Source: Lysinibacillus sp. JNUCC-52
GTDB taxonomy: Bacteria; Bacillota; Bacilli; Bacillales_A; Planococcaceae
NCBI RefSeq assembly: GCF_015999545.1
Contig: NZ_CP065546.1
Location: 682,001-746,000 of the forward strand
DNA: 64,000 nt
Direction of reading: 5' to 3'
Positions 1,309 to 51,702 of the stretch are shown piece after piece (position 1 is the first letter of the stretch; the number at the start of each line of letters is the position of its first letter). The notes beneath the pieces are model-generated. The model ran no database searches. It saw only the letters and a program-made list of their open reading frames with translations, and was not told the DNA's origin. Both the position numbers and the translations under genes were made by a program.

Positions 1309-2018
1309 CTTCCGCGGGATTACTCCTTCCTTCCGCGGGATTATGCATCTCTTTCGCGGAATTACACCTCTCTTCCGCGGAATTACTCCTCCCTTTCGCG
1401 GAATTACTCCTCAGACGCGGGATTATACTTCCCTTCCGCGGAATTACACCTCTTTCGCGGAATTCTACCTTCCTTCCGCGGAATTACTACTCCCTTTCGC
1501 GGAATTACTCCTCAGACGCGGGATTATACTTCCCTTCCGCGGAATTACTACTCCCTTTCGCGGGATTCTACCTTCCTTCCGCGGAATTACTACTCCCTTT
1601 CGCGGAATTACTACTCCCTTCCGAGGGATTACACCTTCCTTTCGCGGGATTCTACCTGCCTGCCGCGGGATTACTCCTTCCTTTCGCGGAATTACGCCTC
1701 TCTTCCGCGGGATTCTACCTCTCTTCCGCGGAATTACTACTCCCTTCCGAGGGATTACACCTTCCTTTCGCGGGATTCTACCTGCCTGCCGCGGGATTAC
1801 TCTTCTCTTCCGCGGAATTACACCTCAGACGCGGGATTACTCCTTCCTTTCGCGGAATTATACCTCTCTTCCGCGGAATTCTACCTTCCTTCCGCGGGAT
1901 TACTCTTCTCTTCCGCGGAATTACACCTCAGACGCGGGATTACACCTCCCTTTCGCGGAATTCTACCCATCTTCCGCGGGATTACGCCTCAGACACGGAA
2001 TTCAACCTTCCTTCCGCG
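1309..2018. repeat. Intergenic tandem array, 21-bp period, about 33 units, core CGCGGRATT
   Basis: Cores of the form CGCGG(G/A)ATTAC or CGCGGAATTCTAC recur at 1314, 1335, 1356, 1377 and 1398, exactly 21 bp apart. An occasional 19-bp unit (the 'agac' variant, for example the one leading to 1417) shifts the phase. The array runs to about 2017. Because 21 is a multiple of three and units lack stops, the whole array is open in one frame and would encode FRGIT-type heptapeptides. It has no convincing ribosome binding site and the sequence varies like a non-coding repeat, so I do not call a protein. It fills the gap between the SulP terminator and the AarF gene. Confidence 0.9.
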
Positions 2019-2118
2019 AATATTAAATAATTACATTCATCTCATTTTTAACAATATTTGGTGTATGATTTAAGTATTGTTTATTAATTACCAAATTGAT
2101 AAAACTGGGGGATATAGC

Positions 2119-3738
2119 ATGAAAAATAGGAAAAGCTGGTTTCGAATGTGGAAAATCCTATCCTTTGCATTTTCCATGATTATTCAAGTTTATTGGTATC
2201 GCTTTAGAAAAAAATCGGATGCACAATGGGAATTGTTATGGGAAAAGCTTGGTCGACAATTTCGCCAGACACTATTTGAGCTGGAAGGTGTATTAATTAA
2301 AGTTGGGCAACTTTTAAGTATTCGTGAAGACTTACTGCCAAAAAGTTTTATTAGTCAAATTCAAGATTTAGTTGATCAAGTACCTCCCTCTCCTTGGGAA
2401 GATATTCAATGTGTATTGGAAAAGGAATGGGGCAAACCGATAGACAATGTGCTTCTTTCCATCGAGCCAAAGGCAGTGGCTTCTGCCTCTATTGGTGAAG
2501 TTTATCGCGGAAGGCTAAAAGACGGAACAAATGTAGCTATTAAAGTACAACGGCCATCCATCCCATCAATTATGCGAACTGATTTTCGTTCATTAGCCAT
2601 TATTATTTCATTTGCTCAATATTTTGCTCCTATTCCAAAAGGATTTATTAATTTTAGAATGCTCTTTAATGAACTCAAATCTGTTATAGGACGTGAATTG
2701 GATTTCAAAAAAGAGTTAGATACAATGAAGCATTTCAGAGAACGCTTTGAAGACATCTATCAGCTTACGATTCCTACTGCTTATCCCGATATTAGTACAT
2801 CACAAGTATTAGTAATGGATTGGATAGATGGTGTTAGAATAACTGATAGTGTATTTTTATCAACAAATCAAATTGATAAAGAAGTTTTATCAAAGCAATT
2901 ATTGCGCGCCTTCTTGCCTCAATGGTTAGAGGCGGGCATGTTTCATGCGGATCCACATGCTGGAAATGTTTTAGTAAAGGCAGATGGTACAATTGTACTT
3001 CTTGATTTTGGAATGGTAGGCGAAATATCAAGAAAAGATGCAGCTAATTTCCAAAATTTAATGCAGGCCATTTTTCTGAAAAATTATGCACAAGCAGCAG
3101 AGACATTAAAGAGTTTAGGTTTTTTACTACCAGGAGCAGATTTGAAAGTCATTGAAAATCTACTTAAGGAAGTACTCTTATTAGATGTAAATAAGGTAAA
3201 AGAAATGGACTTATTCGCCGTCAAAAAAGAAATGAACGACATTTTAAAACTACTTCCTATACAAGTACCTACACGATTTATTTTTTTAGGCCGCTCCTTT
3301 GTGACAATTGAAGGTTTACTGTTAACCATAAATCCAGAAAAAGAAATTTTAGATATCATTAAACCAGTATTTACTGATTGGGTAAAGCAAGGAAGCTCAA
3401 ATAATTGGAAGTCTGTATTACAATGGCTCAATGCGTTACCGATTTTTAAAGTATTTCATTCTTTATACGATCTCGTGGAAACACCCCAGCGCTTATTAAT
3501 CCAAAAGGAAAATTTGCAGTACAGAGAATTTGTCTTTTCCGTCTATGAAAATCAAAAAAGGCAAATTTTCATATTAACTGTTTTAGCATTAGTCGGTATT
3601 TTCGTTGGCAAGTATTTGCATTATGCAATAGTGTATAAAGCATCCGCTGTGTTATTGTCACTCTCCATTCCTTTATATATTGTGAGTAGTTGGAGGCAAC
3701 GAAAATGGTTAAAACGTATGTATAACAAAGCATTGTAA
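2119..3738 (+). CDS. AarF/ABC1/UbiB-family atypical kinase-like protein
   Basis: The product is 539 residues from the ATG at 2119, chosen over an upstream in-frame start at 2077 because GGGGGAT sits just before it. Family marks are KVGQ near residue 61 (the KxGQ motif), the ASASIG loop near 121 replacing a normal P-loop, VAIKVQRP with the conserved lysine near 142, HADPHAGN, and LLDFGM as the metal-binding motif. Two hydrophobic segments close the C-terminus. UbiB/ADCK members are membrane-associated ATPases linked to quinone or lipid metabolism. In a menaquinone user the exact role is unknown. It stands alone between the repeat array and a terminator. Confidence 0.88.
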   Translation: MKNRKSWFRMWKILSFAFSMIIQVYWYRFRKKSDAQWELLWEKLGRQFRQTLFELEGVLIKVGQLLSIREDLLPKSFISQIQDLVDQVPPSPWEDIQCVLEKEWGKPIDNVLLSIEPKAVASASIGEVYRGRLKDGTNVAIKVQRPSIPSIMRTDFRSLAIIISFAQYFAPIPKGFINFRMLFNELKSVIGRELDFKKELDTMKHFRERFEDIYQLTIPTAYPDISTSQVLVMDWIDGVRITDSVFLSTNQIDKEVLSKQLLRAFLPQWLEAGMFHADPHAGNVLVKADGTIVLLDFGMVGEISRKDAANFQNLMQAIFLKNYAQAAETLKSLGFLLPGADLKVIENLLKEVLLLDVNKVKEMDLFAVKKEMNDILKLLPIQVPTRFIFLGRSFVTIEGLLLTINPEKEILDIIKPVFTDWVKQGSSNNWKSVLQWLNALPIFKVFHSLYDLVETPQRLLIQKENLQYREFVFSVYENQKRQIFILTVLALVGIFVGKYLHYAIVYKASAVLLSLSIPLYIVSSWRQRKWLKRMYNKAL

Positions 3739-3770
3739 AAAACAGCGCCCATTCGCAGTGCATGAGTATT

Positions 3771-3799
3771 GCCTCCTAAAGTTTAGGAGGCATATTTTA
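3771..3799 (+). terminator. Intrinsic terminator after the AarF-like gene
   Basis: GCCTCCTAAA / TTTAGGAGGC hairpin at 3771-3791 followed by ATATTTTATTT. It lies about 30 bp past the stop. Confidence 0.75.
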
Positions 3800-3908
3800 T
3801 TTCTGTTCGCCACGTTTTCCTATCTGTCTTTCCCTCTCTATCTATAGTTCTATATTCTTTCAATGTCTCATAAATTGACTAAAATACCGAATAAGGAGAA
3901 CTGTAAAT

Positions 3909-4127
3909 ATGCATGTTGTTCATTTTTATGAAAATAAGTCCTCAATTTTAAATCAGTTATTAATACGCATTCCCACTGTGGATGAAAACCTCCAACTAAA
4001 AGGTCGGAAGGCAAAAGTAATCGATGTTATTCAAATCGATGAGCGACAGTATCATGTATTTGTGTTGTTTGAAAAAATACCGAAAAAACAACCTCTATCA
4101 AAAGATTTAGGGAAGAAAAAGAGATAA
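3909..4127 (+). CDS. Small conserved-looking hypothetical protein, 72 aa
   Basis: The start has a good ribosome binding site, AAGGAG, 8 bp before the ATG. The product is small, soluble and basic at its C-terminus (it ends KDLGKKKR). I do not recognise a family. The middle part reads like a short beta-rich fold (KAKVIDVIQIDERQYHVFVLFEKI). The stop codon lies in the loop of its own terminator hairpin, which supports a real monocistronic gene. Function unknown. Confidence 0.65.
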   Translation: MHVVHFYENKSSILNQLLIRIPTVDENLQLKGRKAKVIDVIQIDERQYHVFVLFEKIPKKQPLSKDLGKKKR

Positions 4128-4142
4128 TTTCTTCCCTATTTC
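4108..4142 (+). terminator. Terminator overlapping the end of the 72-aa gene
   Basis: Perfect 11-bp arms TAGGGAAGAAA (4108-4118) and TTTCTTCCCTA (4128-4138), with the TAA stop at 4125-4127 in the loop. The T-tail is weak, so it is moderate as a terminator. Confidence 0.6.
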
Positions 4143-4247
4143 CATAGGCGAAAAAGTTTATGAGCAGACAAAACGGGTAAGTTATAATATACTCACAAAC
4201 CACATTGCGATTAATTCTCATTTAATCTAATTTATTAAGCAGAACAA

Positions 4248-4282
4248 TTGACTTTTTAATTGATAACAATTATCATTATCAT
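4248..4282 (+). promoter_or_regulatory. Sigma-A promoter overlapped by a Fur box
   Basis: TTGACT (4248-4253) and TATCAT (4271-4276) are separated by 17 bp. A 19-bp stretch at 4262-4280 matches 16 of 19 bases of the classical Fur consensus (GATAAtgATaATCATTATC, lower case marking the mismatches). The box covers the -10 region, so Fur with iron should block transcription. It drives the small transcript and/or the fumC gene that follow. Confidence 0.8.
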
Positions 4283-4388
4283 ATAGATTTTTTCTCTAGT
4301 TTGTTTATTTCAGAATCCCCCCTTATTTTTTGAAATAAGCATGCATTAAACGGATATTCTTACATCAGACTAAGAATATCCGTTTTTT
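4283..4388 (+). ncRNA. Candidate Fur-regulated small RNA (FsrA-like) or fumC leader
   Basis: A transcript from the Fur-boxed promoter would start near 4283 and stop at a perfect terminator ending at 4388, giving about 105 nt. It has no plausible ORF. It carries a run of six cytosines (4317-4322), a small hairpin CTTATTT/AAATAAG right after it, and the terminator. Bacillus subtilis FsrA is a Fur-repressed sRNA of similar size that uses C-rich unpaired stretches to block ribosome binding sites of iron-rich enzymes. The match is in architecture only; homology has not been tested. The alternative is an attenuated leader of fumC. Confidence 0.55.
4349..4388 (+). terminator. Perfect intrinsic terminator between Fur-boxed promoter and fumC
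   Basis: Fourteen-base perfect arms AACGGATATTCTTA (4349-4362) and TAAGAATATCCGTT (4371-4384), loop CATCAGAC, tail TTTTTT. It ends 29 bp before the fumC start. Confidence 0.9.
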
Positions 4389-4417
4389 CATTACATATAT
4401 CGAAGGAGCTGTTATAA

Positions 4418-5806
4418 ATGGATTTTCGTATCGAAAAAGACACTATGGGTGAAATTAAAGTACCTGCCAACAAAATATGGGGAGCACAAACTCAACGTAG
4501 TAAGGAAAACTTCCAAATTGGCACTGAGCATATGCCTATTGAATTAATTCAAGCAATGGCTATTCTAAAGAAAAGTGCAGCAATTGCGAACAATAAATTA
4601 GGAAAGCTTTCAGATATTAAGGCAAATGCGATTGTGCAAGCTGCAGATGAAGTTTTAAACGGTCAATGGGATGACCAATTCCCTCTTGTTGTATGGCAAA
4701 CAGGTAGTGGCACACAATCCAACATGAATGTAAATGAGGTTATTGCGCATCGTGCAAATCAAATTTTACAAGACGCTGGTGAATCAGACCGCATCCATCC
4801 AAATGATGATGTCAATAAATCACAAAGCTCCAACGATACGTTTCCTACGGCGTTGCATATCGCAGCTGTACTAAAAGTAGAAGATTATTTACTACCTCGC
4901 CTTCGCTTACTAAAAGCTACCTTGGATGAAAAGGCTGAGAATTTCAAAGATATTATTAAAATCGGACGTACTCATTTACAAGACGCTACTCCACTGACTT
5001 TAGGTCAAGAGATAAGTGGCTGGTCAGCAATGCTAGGTAAATCTGAGCAAATGATTAAACATAATGTTGAATATATGAAGGAGCTTGCAATTGGCGGTAC
5101 GGCTGTCGGTACTGGTATTAATGCACATCCTGAATTCGGCGATCGAGTAGCAGCTGAAATTAGCGAGCTGACAGGAAAACAATTTACATCTGCAGCAAAT
5201 AAGTTCCATGCACTAACAAGTCATGATGAAGCTGTCGTGGCGCATGGCGCATTAAAAGCACTCGCAGCGGACTTAATGAAAATTGCGAATGATGTACGTT
5301 GGTTAGCAAGTGGTCCTCGTTCTGGTATCGGTGAAATTACCATTCCAGAAAATGAACCAGGCTCATCCATTATGCCAGGTAAAGTAAATCCAACGCAAAG
5401 TGAAGCGATGACAATGGTCGTGACACAAGTCGTTGGAAATGATGCAACGATTGCCTTTGCCGCTTCACAAGGGAATTTTGAGCTCAATGTTTTTAAACCA
5501 GTCATTATCTATAATTTCTTACAGTCAACTCGCCTCCTAGCCGATACGATGAAATCATTCAATGATAACTGTGCGATTGGTATCGAACCAAATATTGAAG
5601 TGCTTGATCATAACCTGCAAAACTCCTTAATGCTAGTCACTGCATTAAATCCTTATATTGGCTATGAGAATGCAGCAAAAATTGCGAAAAAAGCACATAA
5701 AGAAGGCACTACATTAAAAGAAGCTGCTATTGCTTCTGGTTTGTTAACTGAAGAACAATTTAATGAATATGTTGACCCAGCTACGATGATTTATCCAAAC
5801 GCTTAA
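4418..5806 (+). CDS. fumC: Fumarate hydratase, class II (iron-independent)
   Basis: 462 residues, the usual length for FumC/CitG. The fumarase/aspartase signature [11 protein letters not shown] is present, as are [11 protein letters not shown] and [10 protein letters not shown], which build the active site at the tetramer interface. It interconverts fumarate and malate in the cytoplasmic TCA cycle without an iron-sulfur cluster. The start has GAAGGAGCTG 8-9 bp upstream. No separate promoter is evident in the 29 bp between the upstream terminator and the gene. Expression may therefore depend on read-through from the Fur-controlled promoter at 4248, which would fit an iron-free enzyme. A terminator follows. 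Confidence 0.97.
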
Positions 5807-5842
5807 TGTTATAAGTGTGGGACAACGGAGCTAACTACACAT

Positions 5843-5875
5843 AAAAAAGCCTTGATATTACATCAAGGCTTTTTT
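5843..5875 (+). terminator. Terminator after fumC
   Basis: AAAGCCTTGAT / ATCAAGGCTTT hairpin with TTTTT tail. A-rich on its left side, so it may also stop minus-strand transcription. Confidence 0.85.
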
Positions 5876-5909
5876 CTCTGTCAGAAATTCCACTATAAGA
5901 CGTGACTTG

Positions 5910-6098
5910 CTATGTAATTTTATAAAGAATAAGAGCTGTGTAAACACTATGCTTATCATAAAAAGTATATGTAGAATACTTAATATCGACAAAGTCTCCT
6001 TCTGGTAAATCATATAAAAATTTATTAATCATGTTTTCAAGCGTATCTTTATCTCTAGCCTCAAGTATGTTCGTTCTTAATCGTGCCACTTTAATCAC
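5910..6098 (-). CDS. Cse60-like small sporulation protein
   Basis: Up to 62 residues from a GTG at 6098. A second GTG at 6089 is better spaced from GAGGTGAT and may be the real start. The pattern DTLENMINKFL ... DFVDIKYSTY ... YTALILYK resembles the Cse60 family of ~60-residue Bacillus sporulation proteins (under a sporulation sigma factor in B. subtilis). This is from memory of the family, not a search. The molecular role of Cse60 is unknown. It is convergent with fumC. Confidence 0.6.
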   Translation of the reverse strand: MIKVARLRTNILEARDKDTLENMINKFLYDLPEGDFVDIKYSTYTFYDKHSVYTALILYKIT

Positions 6099-6207
6099 CT
6101 CGCTGCATTCATCATATATTAAATGTCTATATTTGCCAATACTATAGATTGAATATAAATGATAGGAAGCTAAGAGCCTGACTACACAAATCAGACTCTT
6201 AACTAAA

Positions 6208-6849
6208 CTATTGATGCAGCTCTAATCGTTTTTGTTTAAGTGAATTCCAAATTTTTATCGATGCTGCGAATACAAAAATTAGTGAAACAATTACGAACAC
6301 TAAACCAACTGTATATTCATGAAGGTTACTGCCCATATAACTATATAGAATCCTTAATGGGGTACTCGCAATAATCACAGTAAAAATGTAAGTTGAATAC
6401 TTAATCCCTACAGATGCGGACAAAAAACAAATCACATCTGCTGGTGCTATTGGACATATGACGCCTATTGCTAAAAATTTGTAATTGTACGTTTCTAATA
6501 AATTATTCAAGTCGGGGTACCTATTTTCTAAATATTTATTTAGCCTATTCCCCGCAAAGCTTTTTGAAAGTATATAGACGAACGTTTCGCTCAATACAAT
6601 GCCTACAGTTGATAACATGAAAGCCTCAATAGGTTGGAAACAAACTCCCCCCAAAATCATTAGTGTTGTACCTGGAATAAGCAATATCAGTCTAATTATC
6701 CAAAGGCCAATAAACAATAAGTATGCATAATTTTTATTGGCCGAAATCAAATCATTTAGTGCATTCAAATTAAGTGGCAGTAACTGAAAATGCTTTAATA
6801 TATAAATGAATACGAACCAAATTGCAATTATGAGCAGTTTCTTTGTCAT
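6208..6849 (-). CDS. TVP38/TMEM64 (VTT domain, DedA-like) membrane protein
   Basis: 213 residues from the ATG at 6849, preceded by GAGGAG. A longer in-frame reading to 6945 lacks a ribosome site and is rejected. There are five to six hydrophobic segments. The VTT/SNARE-associated core is visible around LIPGTTLMILGGVCF and RLNKYLENRYPDLNNLLETYNYKFLAIGVICPIAPADVICFLSASVG. The family is proposed to move or scramble lipids and undecaprenyl phosphate carriers. Its promoter region carries the motif TTAAGGATTCTTAA, also found upstream of the neighbouring decayed methyltransferase, suggesting shared control by a response regulator. Confidence 0.85.
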   Translation of the reverse strand: MTKKLLIIAIWFVFIYILKHFQLLPLNLNALNDLISANKNYAYLLFIGLWIIRLILLIPGTTLMILGGVCFQPIEAFMLSTVGIVLSETFVYILSKSFAGNRLNKYLENRYPDLNNLLETYNYKFLAIGVICPIAPADVICFLSASVGIKYSTYIFTVIIASTPLRILYSYMGSNLHEYTVGLVFVIVSLIFVFAASIKIWNSLKQKRLELHQ

Positions 6850-6922
6850 TTCTACACTCTCCTCAACACTTTCAATAAACACATAATAAGAATTAAATAT
6901 TAAGAAATACGCGTTGAAATCA

Positions 6923-6936
6923 TTAAGGATTCTTAA
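6923..6936. promoter_or_regulatory. Near-palindromic box upstream of the TVP38 gene (copy 1)
   Basis: TTAAGGATTCTTAA, an inverted repeat TTAAG-gatt-CTTAA, about 75 bp upstream of the TVP38 start. A second copy differing at one base is at 7488-7501. Likely a binding site for a shared regulator. Confidence 0.45.
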
Positions 6937-6991
6937 GATGAGCAATATATACTTATGTCAATGTATGATAAATTAGGTTGCACAGTGATTA

Positions 6992-7225
6992 TTAAAAGTC
7001 GAGACTAAAAAAGAGATGTATTGGCATGCACATCTCCTGCTTCTTCATTAATTTATTCTCCTCAATAGGGAGCATCACAATAAACGTTATCCAGCTATCC
7101 TTGTATACCGCGCGTAAATCCACATGATGAAGTTCAATGATTCTTTTAGAAATAGACAATCCAAGACCAGTACCTTTTGCGTCCATTCTTGCTTTATCCC
7201 CTCTAAAAAAACGTACAAACATTAT
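6992..7225 (-). pseudogene. Remnant of a sensor histidine kinase (C-terminal end of the ATPase domain)
   Basis: Only the end of a HATPase domain is left: FVRFFRGDKARMDAKG then GTGLGLSISKRIIELHH (the G2 box) and a final strand ITFIVMLPIEE. The sensor region, the HisKA domain with its histidine, the N box and the G1 box are missing. The fragment is joined at about 7225 to the start of a methyltransferase gene that reads in the same direction, as expected for a deletion that removed the middle of a methyltransferase/two-component cluster. It cannot function as a kinase. The exact junction is estimated from where family-like residues change, plus or minus ~10 bp. Confidence 0.75.
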
Positions 7226-7413
7226 TAGAGTTTCTTTTTTCAAGCAATTTTTCTGTGAATACCTGTATCTGGCCCAGATACAACAATATATTTTGCTACT
7301 TTAAAATCAATTTTTTCAATCATTTTATCACCGAGAAAACTTGAGCTTGGAAGAATGGCTCCAATTGTTTTTGGATTTGCGAAAAATTGAGTTAAGAAAG
7401 AAAGGTTTTTCAC
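7226..7413 (-). pseudogene. Truncated, frameshifted SAM-dependent (phospholipid-type) methyltransferase
   Basis: From a GTG at 7413, preceded by GAGGTGA, the frame reads VKNLSFLTQFFANPKTIGAI then LPSSSFLGDKMIEKIDF. That is the usual start of small Rossmann methyltransferases related to rRNA adenine dimethylases and PmtA. The SAM-binding motif reads VSGPDTG where E/Y-GPGTG is expected. Just after it the reading moves to another frame, giving VFTEKLLEKRNSNN. The gene then ends in the histidine kinase fragment. So it has a frameshift, a damaged motif I and a 3' truncation. The promoter and ribosome site look intact. Confidence 0.7.
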
Positions 7414-7430
7414 ACTTATTCACCTCAGTA

Positions 7431-7464
7431 GTTTGAATTGATATAGATACTTTAAAATTCAAAC
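7431..7464. promoter_or_regulatory. Inverted repeat in the decayed methyltransferase leader
   Basis: GTTTGAATT (7431-7439) and AATTCAAAC (7456-7464) form 9-bp perfect arms 16 bp apart, just upstream of the ribosome site. Could be an operator left from the original regulatory region. Confidence 0.35.
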
Positions 7465-7487
7465 CTTAAGAGGATATATCGAAAATT

Positions 7488-7501
7488 CTAAGAATCCTTA
7501 A
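7488..7501. promoter_or_regulatory. Near-palindromic box upstream of the decayed methyltransferase (copy 2)
   Basis: CTAAGAATCCTTAA, 13 of 14 bases identical to the reverse complement of the box at 6923-6936. It lies ~75 bp upstream of the methyltransferase start, about the same distance as copy 1 from its gene. Confidence 0.45.
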
Positions 7502-7555
7502 CATTTCTTTTCATTACCTATAAGACGATTTAATTCGTTTAAAGCAAATAAAAAA

Positions 7556-7593
7556 GAACAGTATTAGAACTTCCTTCTCTTCTAACACTGTTC
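7556..7593 (-). terminator. Terminator of the MBL hydrolase unit
   Basis: Arms GAACAGTATTAGAA and TTCTAACACTGTTC (one mismatch), followed on the minus strand by a T-run (A-run at 7550-7555). Confidence 0.8.
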
Positions 7594-7621
7594 CATATTT
7601 ATTTTTGTAAAAATTATTTCA

Positions 7622-30507: not shown

Positions 30508-30575
30508 AACCTAGTTAAATCGCCAGCAAAGTCCCGTGAATCGCCACAAAGACATGCGATTTCGCCATAAACCTA
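30508..30575 (-). repeat. Degenerate 21-bp array, three units
   Basis: Cores at 30518, 30539 and 30560 (AATCGCC, AATCGCC, TTTCGCC on the plus strand; GGCGATT-type on the minus) are exactly 21 bp apart. It lies just beyond the ynfA terminator in the direction of ynfA transcription. Confidence 0.65.
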
Positions 30576-33718: not shown

Positions 33719-33838
33719 GCAATCACTCTTTCACTCTATTGTTCCTTTTAGTTTACCGCAATAAGCGTAGACTTTCTTATTTATTTTCAAGTATTATTTC
33801 GCGGCCTTGCCATTCTTATTCTAGAGGTTCTGCTAAGT

Positions 33839-33960
33839 TTATCTGCGATTCCCTCAGGTTTACCCGCGATTCGTGCTACTTTATCAGCGATTTCCTCTGA
33901 TTTACCCGCGATTTGAGCTACTTTATCCGCGATTCTTGCGGGTTTACCCGCGATTACTGC
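33839..33960. repeat. Intergenic 21-bp array, six units, core GCGATT
   Basis: GCGATT occurs at 33845, 33866, 33887, 33908, 33929 and 33950, exactly 21 bp apart, mostly as CCCGCGATT alternating with TCAGCGATT-type units and followed by CTTTA or GTTTA. The sequence between cores varies. The array fills most of the 335-bp gap between the hyuA terminator and the patatin gene. Confidence 0.9.
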
Positions 33961-33973
33961 ATTCAACGACTAC

Positions 33974-34022
33974 AAAAAAAGACTATAGACAATCTCGTAC
34001 TTTTCGAGTTTGTCTATAGTCT
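33974..34022 (-). terminator. Terminator of the hydantoin operon (hairpin family B, copy 2)
   Basis: AGACTATAGACAATCTCG pairs with CGAGTTTGTCTATAGTCT (one mismatch), with a seven-base T-run on the minus strand. Near-copy of the hairpin at 19713-19756. Confidence 0.87.
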
Positions 34023-34053: not shown

Positions 34054-35604
34054 TTACGCCATTTTGCCGACAACTTTTACTTTTAATCTCGTGGCGTTTT
34101 CTGGATGATAAGCAAGTGGCGTTTCTTCCACTTCTACTAATTCAATCGTCTCTGGAAGTGCTCCAGCTAAAACCGCTTGCTTCACTGCTTTATTTTGTGC
34201 GTCTTTCAAGGACTCTTCACGTGGCTCTTTTGCATAAATGTAAATCTGTTCATATTGCCCGCTAATTTGAGCAATGGATGCGCCAATTGCATTGGCAACA
34301 CTCCCATGTTCATTTTTAATAACGCTAGCGACCCCACGTAATGATTCAGGTACAATAATACTGCCCCCACCGACTAAAACGAGTTGCACATCCTCTGATG
34401 AAGTTTTCATTTTATCAATAGCCTGCTCAAGTAACGACGCCATTTCTTTTTGTACATCTTTGGCAAATGCTTCATCAAGATGAGCTACTAAACTACGATC
34501 TCCTATATTTGCAAGACCTAAGCGCACAGCAATATCTGTTGTTGTAAGCGTGTCGCCTCCAAAGACAAGTGCTTCTTGGCTAATTTTATAGCCTACACTA
34601 TCAGGGCCAACCGTAATCTTGCCATCATTAACACGAACGATACTACCTCCGCCTAGTCCAACCGAAATAATATCGGGCATTCTAAAGTTTGTGCGGATAT
34701 CCCCTACTTCTACAGCGACAGACGATTCTCTTGGAAAACCATCCTGTAGGACACCAATATCAGAAGTTGTTCCACCAACATCCAACACCATCGTATCTTT
34801 AATTTGTGATAAATACGATGCACCGCGAATACTGTTCGTCGGTCCACAAGCAATTGTTAGTATAGGGAATTGTTTTGCATAATCAATCGACATTAACGTT
34901 CCATCATTTTGACATAAATATACTTCCGCATTAAATATACCCTCTGTTTGCAATGCATGAACGAAGCCTTGTGTTGTTGTTTCAATTACTTTGCAAAGAG
35001 CTGCGTTTAGGATTGTTGCATTTTCACGTTCAATTAATCCCACTGAACCTATTAAGGAAGAACAAGAAATAGGAAACTCGTCGCCATACACTTGTTGAAT
35101 AATATTACGAACCTTCAATTCTTGATCATTTTTAATAGAAGAAAAGACCCCAACGATAGCGATAGACTCTACTTCTTGTCGCCAGCCCTCTAATAGCGAT
35201 CGTATTTCATTTTCGTCAAGCTGACTTAATACTTGCCCGTCATATTCGTAGCCACCATGTACTAAAGCATAATTCCCTGATAGGTTGTCCACCATATCTT
35301 GCGGCCAAGCAGTATATGGCAATACTGATGCTGTTGCTGGATAGCCAAGACGAATAACACCTACTTTTGCTAGTTTTTTACGCTCTACAATTGCATTCGT
35401 ACATTGTGTTGTGCCTAGCATGGCATGGCTAATTTGCGTTTTATCAATGGCTAAGTCTTGCAATAAATTTCGTAAAGACGTTTCAATCCCCGTTTTAATA
35501 TCTAAGCTAGTTGGTGATTTCACACTATGAATTAGCTTATTATTGTTATCTAAAAGGATAGCATCTGTATTTGTTCCACCTACATCAATTCCGATTTTAT
35601 ACAT
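34054..35604 (-). CDS. Hydantoinase/oxoprolinase-family protein (HyuA-like)
   Basis: 517 residues from the ATG at 35604, which overlaps the end of the DUF917 gene by 8 bp and has GGGGGCAG upstream. The N-terminus MYKIGIDVGGTNTDAILLD is the ASKHA phosphate-binding loop of the HyuA_N family, followed by LDVGGTTSDIGVLQDG and GLGGGSIV in the hydantoinase A part. Members hydrolyse or ATP-dependently open hydantoin- or oxoproline-like rings. It is the last gene of the permease, DUF917, HyuA operon. Confidence 0.9.
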   Translation of the reverse strand: MYKIGIDVGGTNTDAILLDNNNKLIHSVKSPTSLDIKTGIETSLRNLLQDLAIDKTQISHAMLGTTQCTNAIVERKKLAKVGVIRLGYPATASVLPYTAWPQDMVDNLSGNYALVHGGYEYDGQVLSQLDENEIRSLLEGWRQEVESIAIVGVFSSIKNDQELKVRNIIQQVYGDEFPISCSSLIGSVGLIERENATILNAALCKVIETTTQGFVHALQTEGIFNAEVYLCQNDGTLMSIDYAKQFPILTIACGPTNSIRGASYLSQIKDTMVLDVGGTTSDIGVLQDGFPRESSVAVEVGDIRTNFRMPDIISVGLGGGSIVRVNDGKITVGPDSVGYKISQEALVFGGDTLTTTDIAVRLGLANIGDRSLVAHLDEAFAKDVQKEMASLLEQAIDKMKTSSEDVQLVLVGGGSIIVPESLRGVASVIKNEHGSVANAIGASIAQISGQYEQIYIYAKEPREESLKDAQNKAVKQAVLAGALPETIELVEVEETPLAYHPENATRLKVKVVGKMA

Positions 35605-40860: not shown

Positions 40861-40862
40861 CG

Positions 40863-44688: not shown

Positions 44689-44721
44689 GCTAAATACCTA
44701 CTTCCCGAATTAGTCTCTAAC

Positions 44722-44741
44722 GTGAATGATAATCATTATCA
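44722..44741 (-). promoter_or_regulatory. Fur box of the efe operon
   Basis: TGATAATCATTATCA at 44727-44741 is a perfect 7-1-7 Fur site, ~35 bp before efeO. Iron repression of the whole efeOBU operon is expected. Confidence 0.93.
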
Positions 44742-44773
44742 TATGTGATTGCAAGAAGTATTTTTAACTTAAG

Positions 44774-44824
44774 AAAAAAACGTCATTTTGCAGTTGAATT
44801 TTATTTCCAACTAGCAAAATAACG
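44774..44824 (-). terminator. Terminator of the MarR-MFS operon
   Basis: CGTCATTTTGC pairs with GCAAAATAACG (one mismatch), with TTTTTTT following on the minus strand. Confidence 0.83.
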
Positions 44825-44854
44825 CCTTTTCTACAATATAATGATTCTAATCTA

Positions 44855-46051
44855 CTAAATATTGACTTGTTTTATCTTTTCATCTTTTCCATATAAGAAA
44901 TAATAAAGCACAATTGAAATAATAATAACTGCTACCATCGCTAAGAAAATGGCACTATACCCCATCGTCGGTACAAAAAATCCTAAGAAATAAGGCCCTA
45001 TACCTAATCCTAAATCATATAAAATGAAATACGTCGAAGTTGCAAGTCCTAAACGTTCATTTGGTGTAACCTTAATAGCTATTGCTTGTGCGACTGAGTT
45101 GAAATTACCATAACCAATTCCAATAAAAGCTGCAGCTATTAAAAATACACCAGTGCTTGTTGCTGAGCTAAATGCATACATACCGATTGCAAATAACACA
45201 AGACAAGGATAAATAATAATATTGGCTCCTCTTGAGTCAAGTAATTTTCCAGTAAATGGTCGAGTAGCTAAAATTACGATGGCATAAACGATAAAGAAAT
45301 AACTACCTGCTGTTACTAAATTGAGCTCTTTTGCGTAGAACGTCATAAACGACATAACACCTGAATACGCAAAGCCGATTACAAGCGCTACAAAAGCAAT
45401 CGGTACTGCACGCATTTCGATAAAGTTAGATAGCTTAAAGCCTGCTTTCTCCCCAGCTGCTTTCATATTTTTTGGTGCACCTGGCACTTTCACAATAAAA
45501 TACATCATAAAGCAAATAATTGCTAATACTGAATCTACCGCAAAAATCATTCGATAATCTTCAAATAACTGTGTTAATAATATGCCGATAAATGGACCAA
45601 TTGCCGTTGCTAAAATAGCACTTAAGCTGTAATAGCCTATCCCTTCACCACGTCGTTCTGGTGGTAAAATTTGTGCAATAATTGTACCTGTTGCTGTACT
45701 TGCTATACCTAGCGCTATCCCCTGTACTAAACGATTCAGCATAAGGAATGGTAAATTTAAGGCGATAAAATAAGACATCGTAGATAACATAAATAATAAT
45801 AATCCAACAAATAATGTTTTTTTACTGCCCCAATCCCCGATAATTCGACCTGTGCCAAGACGTCCAAAAAGCGTCCCGATAATAAAAATACTCGACACAA
45901 GCCCTGCTGTACTTGTTGATGCGTCAAATTTCTCCACCGCATAGCCAGCTATTGTTACCATCAATAAATAAAAAATTAACGTAATCGTAAAATTAATAAG
46001 TGAAACGATTAAAAAGTCTTTTGTCCATAGTTTCTGTCTAGTTGCTTCCAC
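44855..46051 (-). CDS. MFS transporter
   Basis: 398 residues from a GTG at 46051 (GGAGAGGA upstream), twelve hydrophobic segments. The MFS loop 2-3 motif is GRLGTGRIIGDWGSKKTLFVG and the family's RPFTGKLLDSRG is in the second half. Probably a drug or metabolite exporter. It follows a MarR regulator by 12 bp and shares its promoter. Confidence 0.92.
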   Translation of the reverse strand: MEATRQKLWTKDFLIVSLINFTITLIFYLLMVTIAGYAVEKFDASTSTAGLVSSIFIIGTLFGRLGTGRIIGDWGSKKTLFVGLLLFMLSTMSYFIALNLPFLMLNRLVQGIALGIASTATGTIIAQILPPERRGEGIGYYSLSAILATAIGPFIGILLTQLFEDYRMIFAVDSVLAIICFMMYFIVKVPGAPKNMKAAGEKAGFKLSNFIEMRAVPIAFVALVIGFAYSGVMSFMTFYAKELNLVTAGSYFFIVYAIVILATRPFTGKLLDSRGANIIIYPCLVLFAIGMYAFSSATSTGVFLIAAAFIGIGYGNFNSVAQAIAIKVTPNERLGLATSTYFILYDLGLGIGPYFLGFFVPTMGYSAIFLAMVAVIIISIVLYYFLYGKDEKIKQVNI

Positions 46052-46063
46052 TTGTTTCCTCTC

Positions 46064-46483
46064 CTACTGATGAATGTTTTTACTTATGCTTGCTAAAACT
46101 CGAGAAGCAATTTCAATATCTTGTTTCGATACACCAGCTAATGCGTTTTCTAAAAATGGTTTTATATGCTCTTGGATTTCGTCCACGATTTTTTGACCAT
46201 TTGGCGTTAATTGTACAACTTTTGCTCGCTTATCTTTTCCAGCTACCGTCTCCACATAACCTAGGTCTACTAGCTTTTGTACAAGCCTTGTTACACTTGG
46301 CTTTTCAATAGACATAAAGTTCGCAATTTCAACTAGTGAATGCGGACCTTTATCGACTAAGAAACGTAAAACGGCCCACTGAGAGCTATATAATTGATAT
46401 TGTTCCAACTGCTTGTTGAGTTGATTCGTAAACGGTCGGTACATTAAACGAAATTCATTAAAAAATTGCTGTTCAATCGTCAA
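46064..46483 (-). CDS. MarR-family transcriptional regulator
   Basis: 139 residues from a TTG at 46483, which is 8 bp after AAGGAG; ATG codons closer to the ribosome site are less well placed. The winged helix is SLVEIANFMSIEKPSVTRLV and the wing DKRAKVVQLT. It probably represses its own operon with the MFS transporter by binding the palindrome just upstream. Confidence 0.9.
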   Translation of the reverse strand: MTIEQQFFNEFRLMYRPFTNQLNKQLEQYQLYSSQWAVLRFLVDKGPHSLVEIANFMSIEKPSVTRLVQKLVDLGYVETVAGKDKRAKVVQLTPNGQKIVDEIQEHIKPFLENALAGVSKQDIEIASRVLASISKNIHQ

Positions 46484-46500
46484 GATCATCACTCCTTAAT

Positions 46501-46544
46501 TAGTTAGCCTAGCTAACTATATAACAAAACATAGCATTTGTCTA
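46501..46544 (-). promoter_or_regulatory. marR-MFS promoter with overlapping palindrome
   Basis: Minus strand TAGACA (46544-46539), 17-bp spacer, TATAGT (46521-46516). TAGTTAGCCTAGCTAACTA (46501-46519, perfect 8-base arms) covers the -10 and start, as expected for a MarR operator. Confidence 0.75.
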
Positions 46545-46589
46545 GGTTTAATTATGCTACATATCTATGTTTGACAAGTCTTTCTGAAC

Positions 46590-46618
46590 AAAAAACTGAA
46601 CAGCGCAAGCCATTCAGT
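46590..46618 (-). terminator. Terminator of the siderophore ABC operon
   Basis: ACTGAA / TTCAGT stem with TTTTTTG on the minus strand. It overlaps the last codons of the final permease gene. Confidence 0.6.
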
Positions 46619-47621
46619 CGTTTTTTCTTAATAAATATAAAAAATAAGGTGCACCGATACATGCGACAACGATGCCTGCAGGCACAGTGGCAGTTGAAAT
46701 AGCCACACGTCCTATTGTATCTGCTAGCATTAATAAACAAGCACCTATAAATAATGTTATGGGTAAAAAGAATTGATAGCGGGGGCCAACAAGCTGCTTG
46801 GCAATATGTGGTGCCATTAAGCCGATAAACGCAATGCCCCCTGTTACCGATACGGCAGCTGCTGCAAGGGCAACTGCCACCATTAATAATTGTAGTCGCT
46901 CTTTAGCAATATTTACACCCAACCCAATTGCTGTTTGCTCTGTCATTGCTAGTACATTTAAAACATTTGCTTTATAAAAAATGAATGGTATACATATGAC
47001 TAGCCATGGTAGTAATGCCCATACAAATGGCCAATCCGTTCCCCATACACTTCCAGCAAGCCATTGTGCGATAAACTGTACATCTGAGCGCTCAGCCGAG
47101 GAAATTAACAACATCATTACACCTGATAATGCAGATGCCACACCTACCCCGATTAAAATTAGCTTTACAGGTTGAACACCTTGACTACGCTTATATGAAA
47201 AAAAGTAAATACTAAGGGCCGTTAAGATCGCACTGAAAAATCCTACTACTGGCAATATGTACGCAAAATTTGGTAAATCACCATGGACAAATAAATAAAA
47301 AATAGTGATTCCCACCCCTGCACCAGCATTGATACCAATAATACCAGGGTCTGCTAAATCATTACGTGTGACCCCCTGTAAAACAGCTCCTGCTAATGCT
47401 AAAGCCATGCCTGCTAGTGCGAGTATAAATATCCTTGGCAGGCGAACTGAAAACAACACAAAGGATTCTTTAAAAGTACCATCACCAAACAATATAGGAA
47501 GAATACGATTAATAGACACCGAAGCTGCGCCAAGTGAAATGCCCATTACAAAAATAAATAATGTTAGCACTAGCCAAATAAGTAGCCAAATTCGTTGTTT
47601 TTTTTGTGCAGCTTTAAGCAA
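46614..47621 (-). CDS. FecCD-type iron-siderophore ABC permease (second)
   Basis: 335 residues from a TTG at 47621, overlapping the preceding permease by 8 bp with AGGGAGG in that gene's end; upstream in-frame starts are disfavoured. About nine hydrophobic segments. The family signatures LQGVTRNDLADPGIIGINAGAG and TGGIAFIGLMAPHIAKQLVGP are present. It forms the membrane channel with the other permease. Confidence 0.92.
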   Translation of the reverse strand: MLKAAQKKQRIWLLIWLVLTLFIFVMGISLGAASVSINRILPILFGDGTFKESFVLFSVRLPRIFILALAGMALALAGAVLQGVTRNDLADPGIIGINAGAGVGITIFYLFVHGDLPNFAYILPVVGFFSAILTALSIYFFSYKRSQGVQPVKLILIGVGVASALSGVMMLLISSAERSDVQFIAQWLAGSVWGTDWPFVWALLPWLVICIPFIFYKANVLNVLAMTEQTAIGLGVNIAKERLQLLMVAVALAAAAVSVTGGIAFIGLMAPHIAKQLVGPRYQFFLPITLFIGACLLMLADTIGRVAISTATVPAGIVVACIGAPYFLYLLRKND

Positions 47622-48615
47622 ACTGACGACCTCCCTTACGTACAAGTAGTAAGAAGAATGGAAGGCCAATAATTGAAATAACGGCTACTACAGGCGTTTC
47701 ATACGGTGCATTCACCATGCGGGCTACAAAATCTGCAGCAACCATTAACCAACCACCTACAAGAGCACACATCGGTAAAACAAAACGATAATCTGTACCA
47801 ACTAAAGCACGGACAATATGTGGCACCATTAAGCCAATAAACGCTAGATTCCCTACAAGCGCTACAGCGGCCCCCGCAAGAATAACCACTACGAACATCA
47901 TAATCCCTTTAATCACTGCTGTTTTCTGACCTAAGCCGACAGCTACCTCTTCATTTAAACTTAAAATCGTTAGCTGTCTGCTAAATATAAACGCAATCCC
48001 TAAACCTATTACAATTACAGGTACAATGATTAAAGCTTGCCACGTAGTGCCGATTAAACCACCACTTGTCCACATCGATACATCTTTTGCAATTTTAAAT
48101 AATATCCCCGTTCCATCAGCAACTGCTTGTAAAAGAGCCGAAACTGCAGCACCAGCTAAAACTAGCTTTAGTGGAGAAAAGCCACCCTTTGTAGATGCAC
48201 CAATACTATATACAATAATCATCCCTATACCCGCACCAATAAAGCATGCGAAAATTAGTACATAATACGAGGAATTTGGAATAACCGCCATCGTTAAGGC
48301 TAAAGCAGCATTTGCTCCTGCTGTAAGACCAAGAAGCCCTGGATCTGCTAAAGCATTTCTTGTGACGCCCTGCATAATAGCTCCAGCAACTGCGAGTGCA
48401 CTACCAACAAAAATAGCAGCAATAATACGCGGAAATCGAATCTCACGTAAAATAGCGTAATGCTTGCCCCCATCTTGTCCAACAATCGCTTGATAAACAT
48501 CTTGAATACTCGTATTCGCAGCGCCAATACATAGCGAGATGGTTACTGTCACTGCTAAAACGAGCAGTGATAGTAACAGCTGAAGCCAAAACGGAAAATG
48601 TCGAAACTTTGTCAT
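47614..48615 (-). CDS. FecCD-type iron-siderophore ABC permease (first)
   Basis: 333 residues, about nine hydrophobic segments. Signatures MQGVTRNALADPGLLGLTAGAN and LVGNLAFIGLMVPHIVRALVG. It pairs with the next gene to form the importer channel; 25 bp separate it from the binding-protein gene. Confidence 0.93.
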   Translation of the reverse strand: MTKFRHFPFWLQLLLSLLVLAVTVTISLCIGAANTSIQDVYQAIVGQDGGKHYAILREIRFPRIIAAIFVGSALAVAGAIMQGVTRNALADPGLLGLTAGANAALALTMAVIPNSSYYVLIFACFIGAGIGMIIVYSIGASTKGGFSPLKLVLAGAAVSALLQAVADGTGILFKIAKDVSMWTSGGLIGTTWQALIIVPVIVIGLGIAFIFSRQLTILSLNEEVAVGLGQKTAVIKGIMMFVVVILAGAAVALVGNLAFIGLMVPHIVRALVGTDYRFVLPMCALVGGWLMVAADFVARMVNAPYETPVVAVISIIGLPFFLLLVRKGGRQFA

Positions 48616-48640
48616 TTGCCTTCGCTACTCTCTATTGAAA

Positions 48641-49567
48641 TTATTGTAAAAACTTCTCTTTAAAGAATTCTAGTTGATATTCTAAAGTAATAGGATCATT
48701 AAAGTAAAATGCGTTACCATTCACTTCAAATAAATGACCGTTTTTTACTGCTTCTAAATCTTTATACCATCCAGCATTTTCAATAGAAGTATTATCGCCA
48801 TTAAACGTACTAAAGATTACATAGTCGCCAGCGTATTCATTTAAAACTTCAGTAGAAATAGCAAAATAACCTGGTTTTAAAGCATCTTCTTTCACTTTTT
48901 CAGCCATATTCAAGCCCATTTCTTGATATAAAATTTCTGTGCCACGTCCCCAATTATCGCCATACACATACATTTGTTTATTAAACATTTCCGCAACCGT
49001 AACTGTTGCATCTTCACCGATTTTCGCTTTGATTTTTGTACCTAAATCAGCAGCGCGTTCTTTAAAATCTGCTACCCATTTTGTTGCTTCTTCTTCTTTG
49101 TTTACGACTTTACCAATTTCAATAAATTGCTGTAAATAATCGACTTTACCATAAGTGAATAGTACAGTAGGTGCAATTTCTGCTAGTTTATCGGCATTTT
49201 CAATCCCATTTAAACCAATGATTAAATCTGGATCAAGCTCAATAATTTTTTCAATATCCGTATTTTCAACGACTACTGCATCTTTAATTGCATCTTTAAA
49301 GTTCGGATTATCTGCCGCCCACGAATCAATCCCTACAACATTTACACCAAGTTGCAATAAATGCCCAACAAATGATGATAATACGACTACACGTTTAGGA
49401 TTCGCTGGTACTTCAATAGGACCTGTTTCGGATTGATAAGTAATTGTTTCCGCTGATGATGACTCATTTGCGCCTTCATCTTCTTTCTTTGCATTGTCTT
49501 CTTTGTTGCCGCACGCTGCAAGTACAAGCACGACAATCATAAACATTGGTAAAAGCCACTTTTTCAT
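48641..49567 (-). CDS. Iron-siderophore substrate-binding lipoprotein
   Basis: 308 residues. Lipobox VLVLAAC (cysteine near 19) followed by an acidic linker. A FecB/BtuF-like binding fold: NPKRVVVLSSFVGHLLQLGV, DIEKIIELDPDLIIGLNG and GYFAISTEVLNEYAGDYVIF. It captures a ferric siderophore outside the membrane. Which siderophore is unknown; no siderophore synthesis genes are in the window. Confidence 0.92.
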   Translation of the reverse strand: MKKWLLPMFMIVVLVLAACGNKEDNAKKEDEGANESSSAETITYQSETGPIEVPANPKRVVVLSSFVGHLLQLGVNVVGIDSWAADNPNFKDAIKDAVVVENTDIEKIIELDPDLIIGLNGIENADKLAEIAPTVLFTYGKVDYLQQFIEIGKVVNKEEEATKWVADFKERAADLGTKIKAKIGEDATVTVAEMFNKQMYVYGDNWGRGTEILYQEMGLNMAEKVKEDALKPGYFAISTEVLNEYAGDYVIFSTFNGDNTSIENAGWYKDLEAVKNGHLFEVNGNAFYFNDPITLEYQLEFFKEKFLQ

Positions 49568-49580
49568 TTATATATCCCCT

Positions 49581-50369
49581 TTAAGTTGTTTGTAATAAGT
49601 TATATGTAATGCACATCGGTTTGTCTGTTCGTGGATCTTTTCCAATAACTGCATCGATATGAAATACTTTTTGTAATACTTCAGGTACAATAACTTCTTC
49701 CGCAGTACCGAATTTCACGAGCTCTCCTTGTGAAAGCGCTACAATATAATCAGAAAAACGCGCTGCTTGATTTAAATCATGGAGCACCATGACAATTGTG
49801 CGACCTTCCTCTTCATTTAGCTTGCTTAACAATTCTAAAACTTCTAATTGATGTGCCATATCTAAATAAGTTGTTGGCTCGTCTAAAAAAATAATATCCG
49901 TTTCTTGTGCTAATGCCATTGCAATCCATACACGCTGGCGTTGTCCACCAGACAAAGCATCTACTGCCTGCTGACGAAAAGCATCTGTTTTTGTAACCTT
50001 TAGGGACCAATCAATGACATCTTTATCTTTTTGCGATAAATTGCCAAACCCCTTTTGATATGGAAATCGACCGTAGGACACAAGCTCCTCTACCGTTAAA
50101 CCGTGAGCACTTTCAGGACTTTGTGGCAAAATAGCTAGCTCTTTCGCCAAATCTTTCGTATGCATTTTGGAAATATTTTGACCATCTAATATGACGCTAC
50201 CACTGTCATGCTTTAAAATTCTCGTAATTGCTTTTAAAAGTGTAGATTTACCACAGCCATTAGATCCAATAATTGTCGTTATTTTCCCATCTGGAATTTG
50301 TAATGATAAGTCATGCACTATGGTTTTGTTCTCATAGCCAACACGGATCGATTCAATTTGTAAACGCAA
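49581..50369 (-). CDS. Iron-siderophore ABC transporter ATPase
   Basis: 263 residues from a TTG at 50369 with AGAGAGGG upstream; a longer reading to 50501 would run across the Fur box and is rejected. Walker A GSNGCGKST, signature LSGGQRQR, Walker B IIFLDEPT and switch histidine VLHDLN are intact. First gene of the four-gene importer operon, behind the Fur box at 50429. Confidence 0.93.
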   Translation of the reverse strand: MRLQIESIRVGYENKTIVHDLSLQIPDGKITTIIGSNGCGKSTLLKAITRILKHDSGSVILDGQNISKMHTKDLAKELAILPQSPESAHGLTVEELVSYGRFPYQKGFGNLSQKDKDVIDWSLKVTKTDAFRQQAVDALSGGQRQRVWIAMALAQETDIIFLDEPTTYLDMAHQLEVLELLSKLNEEEGRTIVMVLHDLNQAARFSDYIVALSQGELVKFGTAEEVIVPEVLQKVFHIDAVIGKDPRTDKPMCITYNLLQTT

Positions 50370-50428
50370 AACATACCCTCTCTTTCTTTTTACTAATACA
50401 CATGATATGATAACATCAAAAGCGACAT

Positions 50429-50443
50429 TGATAATCATTATCA
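50429..50443. promoter_or_regulatory. Fur box shared by divergent siderophore operon and reductase
   Basis: TGATAATCATTATCA, a perfect 7-1-7 site, lies ~60 bp from each of the two divergent starts. It probably controls both directions. Confidence 0.92.
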
Positions 50444-50511
50444 CTAAAGATAGTCTAGTTTTCCAATAAGTATTTGTCAAATACTTTTTAATATTTTTCA
50501 AGGATGTGACG

Positions 50512-51561
50512 ATGCAAGTGCAAGATTTATATGATGTAACGATTATAGGTGGTGGGCCTGCGGGCTTATATAGTGCTTTTTACAGTGGGTTAAGAGGCCT
50601 AAAAACTAAATTAATAGAGAGCCAAGAACAGTTAGGTGGAAAGGTGTTACTTTATCCAGAAAAGTTAATTTGGGATATTGGTGGTCACCCTCCTATTTTA
50701 GGTGGGCAGTTTGTCAAACAATTAATTGCACAAGCCAAAACATTCGATCCAACTATCATAACGGCTACAAAGGTTGACTTTATTGAACGTCTTGGTGAAA
50801 TGTTTGTTTTACATACAGCACAAGGGGAAAAACATTATTCAAAAACAATTCTATTAGCAGTCGGTGGGGGCATTATTAACCCTCAAAAACTGACACTAGA
50901 AGGTGCTGAAAAATACGAAATGTCTAATTTGCACTATACCGTCCAGTCATATAAACGTTTTGTCGATAAAGACATCATTATTTCTGGCGGCGGTAATGCT
51001 GCCATTGACTGGGCCGTGGAGCTTAGCCCTATCGCTAAAAACGTAACTGTTGTATATCGTAAGGACACGCTCTCCGCACATGAAGCGACAATACAAGAAG
51101 CGCTAGATGCTGGCGTTCAAATTGAATGTAACACGACAATTACAAAGCTAACTGCAAATACAGATAAAACAGCCATTGAATTTGTCACTTGCGAAAATTC
51201 TCAAACAAAGCAGAGCTACACACGTCAAGTGGATGAAGTCATTGTAAGTCATGGCTATAACCGTGAAGCATCTCTTACATTTGACGAGGCAATCTCACTT
51301 CCTAAAAAGGACGACTATTATTTTGAAGGAAAAGCAACAGGTGAAACAGCCCAACCAGGTATTTTCGCAGCAGGAGATATTTTATCATTCGAAGGGAAAA
51401 TTCATCTTCTACTAGGCACATTCCAAGACGCTGCTAATGCTGTCAATTCTATTAAAACGTATTTAGAACCGACCGCTAATCGTCATGCAGTCGTATCTTC
51501 ACATAATGAAATCTTTAAAGAAAAAAATCGCTCTATTATCGAAAACAGCTTGGTTAGATAA
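50512..51561 (+). CDS. Ferredoxin/flavodoxin-NADP reductase (YumC/YcgT-like)
   Basis: 349 residues from the ATG at 50512 (AAGGA 7 bp upstream). FAD motif DVTIIGGGPAGLYSAFYSGLRG, an NADPH-binding GGGNAAIDWA, and a C-terminal GIFAAGDI then FQDAANAVNSIKTYL. It is the thioredoxin-reductase-like type without the CxxC pair, as in Bacillus YumC/YcgT. The Fur box and divergent siderophore operon suggest it supplies electrons for releasing iron from siderophores or for flavodoxin under iron limitation (inference). Confidence 0.92.
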   Translation: MQVQDLYDVTIIGGGPAGLYSAFYSGLRGLKTKLIESQEQLGGKVLLYPEKLIWDIGGHPPILGGQFVKQLIAQAKTFDPTIITATKVDFIERLGEMFVLHTAQGEKHYSKTILLAVGGGIINPQKLTLEGAEKYEMSNLHYTVQSYKRFVDKDIIISGGGNAAIDWAVELSPIAKNVTVVYRKDTLSAHEATIQEALDAGVQIECNTTITKLTANTDKTAIEFVTCENSQTKQSYTRQVDEVIVSHGYNREASLTFDEAISLPKKDDYYFEGKATGETAQPGIFAAGDILSFEGKIHLLLGTFQDAANAVNSIKTYLEPTANRHAVVSSHNEIFKEKNRSIIENSLVR

Positions 51562-51577
51562 TTCGGACCAAAAAGGT

Positions 51578-51616
51578 AAAGTGTTAGATTGACTGCCATC
51601 AATCTAACACTTTTTT
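51578..51616 (+). terminator. Terminator of the reductase gene (hairpin family A, copy 2)
   Basis: Perfect 15-base arms AAAGTGTTAGATTGA and TCAATCTAACACTTT with a TTTTTT tail. The 3' arm and following TTTTTTGCT match the ynfA terminator at 30601-30638 on the other strand. Confidence 0.9.
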
Positions 51617-51629
51617 GCTGCACACATTG

Positions 51630-51702
51630 ATGAGCGATTTCTGTAGGTTTACTGGCGATTATCAGACTTCTATCGGCGATTTCTAGTGTTTTACCAGCGA
51701 TG
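51630..51702. repeat. Intergenic 21-bp array, four units, core GCGATT
   Basis: Cores at 51634, 51655, 51676 (GCGATT) and 51697 (GCGATG) are exactly 21 bp apart. It starts 15-20 bp after the terminator of the reductase gene. Confidence 0.82.

Follow-up and report, generated by a model that had tools for sequence, protein, structure and literature searches.

Iterons of plasmid replication are direct repeats with a spacing close to two turns of the helix; monomers bind them from the same face, and they are gathered in one cluster at a replication origin. KOPS and SRS are short motifs that are strongly biased to one replication strand. Architecture imparting sequences (AIMS) are, in the description available to us, octamers of the leading strand (856 versus 61 copies; PMC2830990). 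Staphylococcal STAR elements appear in the accessible account as direct repeats scattered over intergenic regions that have a conserved core, locus-particular spacers, a repeat number that expands and contracts, and no known function; at the locus described there, a single 14 bp GC-rich core, T(G/A/T)TGTTG(G/T)GGCCC(C/A), is combined with spacers of 40–44 bp (PMC3532100). Judging from partial accounts, the tandem repeats of Borgs are perfect units of varied length, about half of them in genes, that have no common core (PMC9879509), and the TAACTGA repeats of Beggiatoaceae are numerous intergenic direct repeats with a patchy spread and a suspected binding protein (PMC4679880). Here we analyse repeat arrays of Lysinibacillus sp. 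JNUCC-52, starting from the window, a stretch of 64,000 nucleotides (positions 682001–746000 of the 4,681,075-base chromosome; source genome G000) in which an earlier note had reported four of them. The arrays recur along the chromosome with a period of 21 bp, and their motif lies mostly on the lagging strand. This polarity with replication is a new result; the earlier note missed it, just as it missed that species differ in their core and that one of the window arrays (array 1) contains 19 bp steps. With a probability of about 0.45, we propose that the arrays are iterated asymmetric recognition sites of a sequence-specific, putative trans-acting factor and form a direction-dependent mark or barrier.

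Arrays with a 21 bp period on the chromosome

The window and 80 stretches of 20 kb from the same chromosome make up a sample of 1.664 Mb. Here, pairs of GCGATT occur 39, 32, 20, 16 and 7 times at lags of 21, 42, 63, 84 and 105 bp and at most five times at the remaining lags among the twelve commonest. A weight-matrix scan of the sample finds 21 strong arrays (score above 25) of 2–9 units each. The information in the unit is carried by positions 2–15 of 21 and is near zero at positions 16–20. Three first-order Markov simulations of the sampled stretches contain no array above 25, the best segment reaching 14.3. Twelve arrays above 25 are found in the reversed sequence; as the core comes close to being a mirror repeat, all 12 coincide with real arrays. 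Copies of the 11-mer TATCGGCGATT lie inside arrays in 39 of 42 cases and outside in three.

In total, the chromosome has at least 39 arrays of this first core, [GT]T[TC]TA[TC]CGGCGATT plus about six free bases: 31 strict-pattern sites listed and eight from the scan alone. Arrays of a second core, CGCGG[AG]AT, are present beyond these. The strict two-unit pattern has 80 matches in G000, and its backward-read control has none across 261 family genomes. A looser pattern was left out of presence counts because its backward-read control matched in five genomes (G018, G022, G023, G024 and G031). The genome scan thus finds many further 21 bp arrays rather than none, and together with the scan of relatives it supports the earlier proposal of a genome-wide, intergenic, helically phased and family-specific element. 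The two chromosome arms (0.45–2.77 Mb and the remainder) are unevenly populated, with a split of 23 to eight among the 31 strict-pattern arrays (p = 0.011). Second-core arrays can be very long, reaching at least 20 units among the matches listed at L072 4565–5132 and at G000 1717850–1718500 and 2161457–2162106.

Counted between 12 and 30 bp, the spacings of the first core are exactly 21 bp in 51 of 51 cases in the G000 sample, 34 of 34 in a second genome, G026, and 59 of 61 in other genera (the two others being 20 bp). The first core tolerates substitutions in the spacer and hardly any insertions or deletions. Second-core spacings in G000 are 21 bp in 52 of 59 cases, and in the GCGACGGA arrays of G001 (L192 and L193) spacings of 21 bp (22 of 32) and 19 bp (10 of 32) stand side by side. 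Lags 9–60 were also scanned without bias, long open frames being excluded. The segments at lag 21 and at lag 42 number, respectively, 15 and 23 in G000; 14 and 14 in G026 (6 of 17 stretches placed on previously known matches); 3 and 3 in G021 (3 of 10 so placed); 4 and 5 in G001 (1 of 10 so placed); and 17 and 15 in other genera, whose loci were fetched by the pattern itself. Every remaining lag is at 4 or below. Before the coding filter, all four lag-21 segments of G021 lie in placed stretches and none of those of G001 does; given the placed stretches in the other sets, G000 and G001 are therefore the fair sets. Lag 40 is a peak in G001 (also 4), a genome with mixed 19 and 21 bp GCGACGGA spacings, and the mix resembles array 1 of the window. 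Coding-heptad-like 21 bp periods were kept separate from the non-coding arrays (L090 5060–5770, L105 17590–17820 and L081 17140–17310).

The features of the window are as follows; the hairpins are read from the sequence.

1267..1308, + strand: terminator-like hairpin and T-run between a sulfate-permease-type gene and array 1
1309..2018, + strand: array 1, second core, 34 cores CGCGG[AG]ATT; lagging strand by GC skew and dnaA position
30508..30575, − strand: array 2, weak first-core remnant of 2–3 units; reversed, leading-strand orientation
33837..33962, + strand: array 3, 6 first-core units, each spacing exactly 21 bp; lagging strand
33973..34022, − strand: terminator-like hairpin between array 3 and a minus-strand gene ending at 34054
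51580..51617, + strand: terminator-like hairpin and T-run between a gene ending at 51561 and array 4
51626..51709, + strand: array 4, 4 first-core units, each spacing exactly 21 bp; convergent genes on either side; lagging strand

Arrays 1, 3 and 4 are real, as claimed earlier; array 2, on the minus strand, is weak, with two scoring units and a total score of 18.0 versus 28.8–176.8 for the 21 strong arrays. The strict 21 bp period described before is exact in arrays 3 and 4 and fails in array 1, where 27 of 33 spacings are 21 bp and six are 19 bp. The same steps break the rule that every core lies on one face of the helix. The single core thought to unite the four arrays is shared only in part: arrays 3 and 4 are built on TA[TC]CNGCGATT and array 1 on CGCGG[AG]ATT, giving two core classes in one genome. 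The eight proteins flanking the window arrays share no common theme. A cobalamin riboswitch (58948–59140, − strand, 118.8 bits) is the sole Rfam match in the window.

Orientation relative to replication and to genes

In G000, the switch points of GC skew and gene direction lie close to 2.8 and 0.45 Mb, with dnaA located at 2.774 Mb. Lagging-strand placement of the motif holds for 35 of the 39 first-core arrays (two-sided binomial p = 3.4e-7). The wrong-way arrays are at 1345388, 1388009, 3114079 and 4420012; with array 2 of the window the tally is 35 of 40. In the wrong-way arrays L179 19329–19496 and L085 12890–13036, GCGATT units alternate with near-palindromic or altered ones (GCGATA, GCGCTATT), an alternation that is absent from the other two.

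The second core follows replication at seven of nine sites among 100 matches listed, a further 39 matches outside that listing all being on the reverse strand by subtraction. TTTATCGGAAC sites in G001 follow at 6 of 7, two of them just beyond the nearest skew-measured stretch. In G021, 3 of 3 array sites follow (by skew). Among the sites listed, 15 of 16 in G024, 12 of 12 in G026 and 4 of 4 in G029 are on the lagging strand, with the origin placed by dnaA and the terminus assumed to be opposite. G028, an incomplete genome with two possible exceptions among the five sites listed for it, was left out, and the single-contig genomes G009 and G027 were not judged. In other genera the motif opposes the local GC skew at 17 of 17 loci, some of them neighbours on one scaffold, and in the same comparison 28 of 30 loci of the genus agree, overlapping duplicates counted (L145 and L148 disagree).

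Base composition as the sole cause of this polarity was rejected: it predicts the correct strand for only 13 of 21 arrays. That count and the small log-odds (to which the core part contributes −0.10) leave composition a contributing role at most. The polarity is not accounted for by gene direction either. In convergent gaps, where gene direction cannot decide orientation, all nine strong arrays follow replication (array 2 of the window does not).

With genes called by us (78% coding), each of the 21 strong arrays is intergenic, two of them overlapping a gene end by at most eight bases. Strong arrays are held by 9 of 133 convergent, 10 of 465 tandem leading-strand, 1 of 143 divergent and 1 of 64 tandem lagging-strand gaps. 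Convergent gaps are enriched (9/133 versus 12/672 for other gaps, Fisher p = 0.0035), and there is a shortage in divergent gaps (p = 0.15). In gaps of 150–1200 bp, our own simple scan finds a terminator in 8 of 8 array-bearing versus 58 of 62 array-free convergent gaps and in 8 of 10 versus 225 of 289 tandem leading-strand gaps, and hence no enrichment of terminators at arrays beyond background. Coding repeats were rejected, as none of the six reading frames is free of stops across the 21 strong arrays; 12 of them are uninterrupted in the frame that is most open.

The enrichment of convergent gaps and the position of the window arrays after terminators would suit an element that acts after transcription, for example on read-through transcripts or termination. 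The earlier note had named a 3'-end element as one possibility and placed the arrays just past terminators. The convergent-gap enrichment is consistent with the first point, and the second fits all four window arrays on reading; terminators at background level, however, make it no distinction from array-free gaps and speak against an RNA-level role. So does the orientation of arrays in convergent gaps, which tracks replication and not one gene. Exact 21 bp spacing has no clear meaning in RNA, the Rfam search of the window gives no match at the arrays, and the stops in all six frames mean that no peptide is made. We consider such a role improbable.

Evolution of cores, spacers and unit number

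The strict two-unit pattern is present in 31 of 261 genomes and 6 of 19 genera of the family, in 15 of 32 genomes of the genus, and in 2 of 41 genomes of a thin sample of the class, one of the two being G000. A named collection adds 18 first-core stretches: five in Planococcus, six in Planomicrobium, two each in Neobacillus and Bacillus, one each in Lentibacillus and Rossellomorea, and an 18th, from a metagenome-assembled genome of an uncultured member of the Clostridia, that looked coding and was dropped. Relatives poor in the first core have 21 bp arrays on other cores (TTTATCGGAAC, GGCGATAAA and AGCGACGGAAA in G001; CCTGAGCGATT in G021). The core changes between species and the period stays at 21 bp. 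In Neobacillus kokaensis (L119 1148–1400) three consecutive 21 bp cores, TTCGCGGATAAC, TTAGCGATTCC and TATCGGCGATT, share one gap. A phage or plasmid origin was rejected: the one strict pattern finds no stretch in IMG/VR and array 3 of the window has no match in PLSDB, other cores not being searched for in either.

Twelve of 26 strong arrays of G000 have both flanks matched in stretches of G026, with one short, doubtful flank match in two of the 12; the remaining 14, the window arrays among them, are outside the G026 coverage. The array is present at all 12 sites, six of which are in stretches placed on known arrays. The fair test comes from the six chosen by map offset, where the array is retained at 6 of 6. 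Flank identity is 84.8–97.2%, while unit number and spacers have been rewritten. In 62 aligned unit pairs the core has 0.085 substitutions per position and the spacer 0.282; restricting the comparison to the 46 pairs whose spacers are similar leaves 44 changes at 506 core positions and 44 at 276 spacer positions (p = 0.003). None of 65 distinct spacers is common to non-orthologous loci, and the common core therefore does not stem from recent copying.

Slippage clearly shapes the arrays, and orientation-dependent minisatellite evolution is the main rival to recognition by a factor. Arrays would expand and contract through slippage in steps of 21 or 42 bp and last in whichever orientation the fork leaves stable; nothing would need to bind them, and cores would reflect descent. 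Orientation-dependent stability of repeats is established, which lends weight to this explanation. It would also account for the differing unit numbers and rewritten spacers at orthologous sites and for the alternation of units starting with TTC and GTT in 40 of 54 neighbouring pairs, as if 42 bp were duplicated. Slippage does not, however, predict one unit length, and lags 21 and 42 dominate the non-coding lags in most sets. Slippage also leaves unexplained why many loci without a spacer in common carry the same core and why the core changes at a lower rate than the spacer, and the wrong-way arrays are not short, two having seven and eight units. We take this explanation seriously and nevertheless hold it to be rather less than an even bet.

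The lagging-strand template is also where a HuH (Y1) transposase could spread arrays as single strands, as for IS200/IS605 and REP elements. G000 has two Y1_Tnp matches; none was found in the array-bearing genomes G001, G022 and G031, so that a Y1 HuH transposase is not required. With no spacer common to different loci and no REP-like hairpin visible by eye in the unit, this route is very improbable.

Phasing at two helical turns could alternatively reflect intrinsically curved or bendable DNA without base-specific recognition. In a wedge model applied to the 15 arrays of at least four units, the bend is 11.0° per unit versus 6.8° in shuffled sequence, and bending is strongest in the two strict arrays of the window. 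Column-permuted units still bend by 9.9°, and the order of the core is therefore not chosen for bend. Bending also has no need of a base-exact core. Curvature alone was rejected, as the real units do not exceed the column-permuted ones, and we give it the least credence of all.

A putative factor and comparison with known systems

We return to iterated sites for a trans-acting factor. Fixed spacing with free spacers, a constrained core and an orientation set by replication argue for recognition in trans of a phased asymmetric site, and phased binding sites are favoured because no spacer is common between loci and cores change less than spacers. The putative factor would most likely be a DNA-binding protein whose protomers, one per two helical turns, align head to tail along a single face of the DNA. 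As the site is one-sided and its direction relative to the fork near-constant, a bound array would present a front and a back to the replisome. Within non-coding gaps it might then provide a mark or barrier whose effect depends on direction: the fork would pass it from one side, and from the other side it may organise DNA or stop head-on transcription.

Several observations weigh against this proposal. The 19 bp steps in second-core arrays (5 of 59) and in the GCGACGGA arrays of G001 (10 of 32) break the face-of-helix rule. Four strong arrays (3 to at least 8 units by eye) and array 2 of the window are oriented the opposite way, base composition leans slightly in the observed direction (mean +0.15 log-odds per unit), and the rapid change in unit number also fits plain slippage. 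Several cores per genome require several factors or a loose one. The protein-binding role suggested earlier fits the data, and neither a binding factor nor a candidate protein was found.

More doubtful is a wider proposal, of a putative system in Planococcaceae and some other Bacilli that reads replication direction: fast-evolving, core-specific factors would coat the phased arrays and set a fixed array face to the fork, organising the chromosome or excluding head-on transcription. If this is true, factor and site would have co-evolved, and the differing cores of the species would be the record of it. Should the factor exist, it would connect replication direction with the organisation of the chromosome in Bacillota in a new way, and its specificity could be mapped from the cores of the different species; if there is none, the arrays offer an unusually clean example of repeats that evolve in dependence on replication direction and keep a fixed unit length. 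With their exact two-turn phasing, lineage-specific cores and polarity, they look like sites of a directional machine.

Among the best-ranked results of a literature search, which covered few subscription papers, no description of 21 bp replication-polar arrays in this group was found. CRISPR repeats of ∼24–48 bp with unique spacers of similar length differ from a 21 bp unit with about 15 specified and six free bases, in agreement with the earlier note, which had set CRISPR aside; cas genes were not searched for. Elements of the IS200/IS605 or REP type differ in their Y1 HuH transposase, for which G001, G022 and G031 have no match. Unlike iterons, the arrays number dozens over a chromosome and have no known Rep protein. 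They share with AIMS, KOPS and SRS a strong replication-strand bias (35/39 in G000, 17/17 in other genera); those are dispersed leading-strand oligomers, whereas the present motif is mostly on the lagging strand, arrayed (39 of 42 TATCGGCGATT copies) and fixed in spacing. Replichore-linked composition recalls Borg repeats, which differ in unit length and core as far as their account goes (PMC9879509). The TAACTGA repeats, in what is accessible of their description, are heptamers mostly just upstream of start codons (PMC4679880).

Among known kinds, the STAR element comes nearest, with similar behaviour and a different core and period. Like STAR, the present arrays combine a conserved core with locus-specific spacers in intergenic gaps. 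Unlike STAR, they have several cores, such as TA[TC]CGGCGATT or CGCGG[AG]AT, at a period of 21 bp, in place of one core with spacers of at least 40 bp. Lagging-strand polarity is a feature of the present arrays; the portion of the STAR description available to us makes no statement on replication polarity (PMC3532100). There is a real chance that the arrays are a new kind of directional chromosome element.

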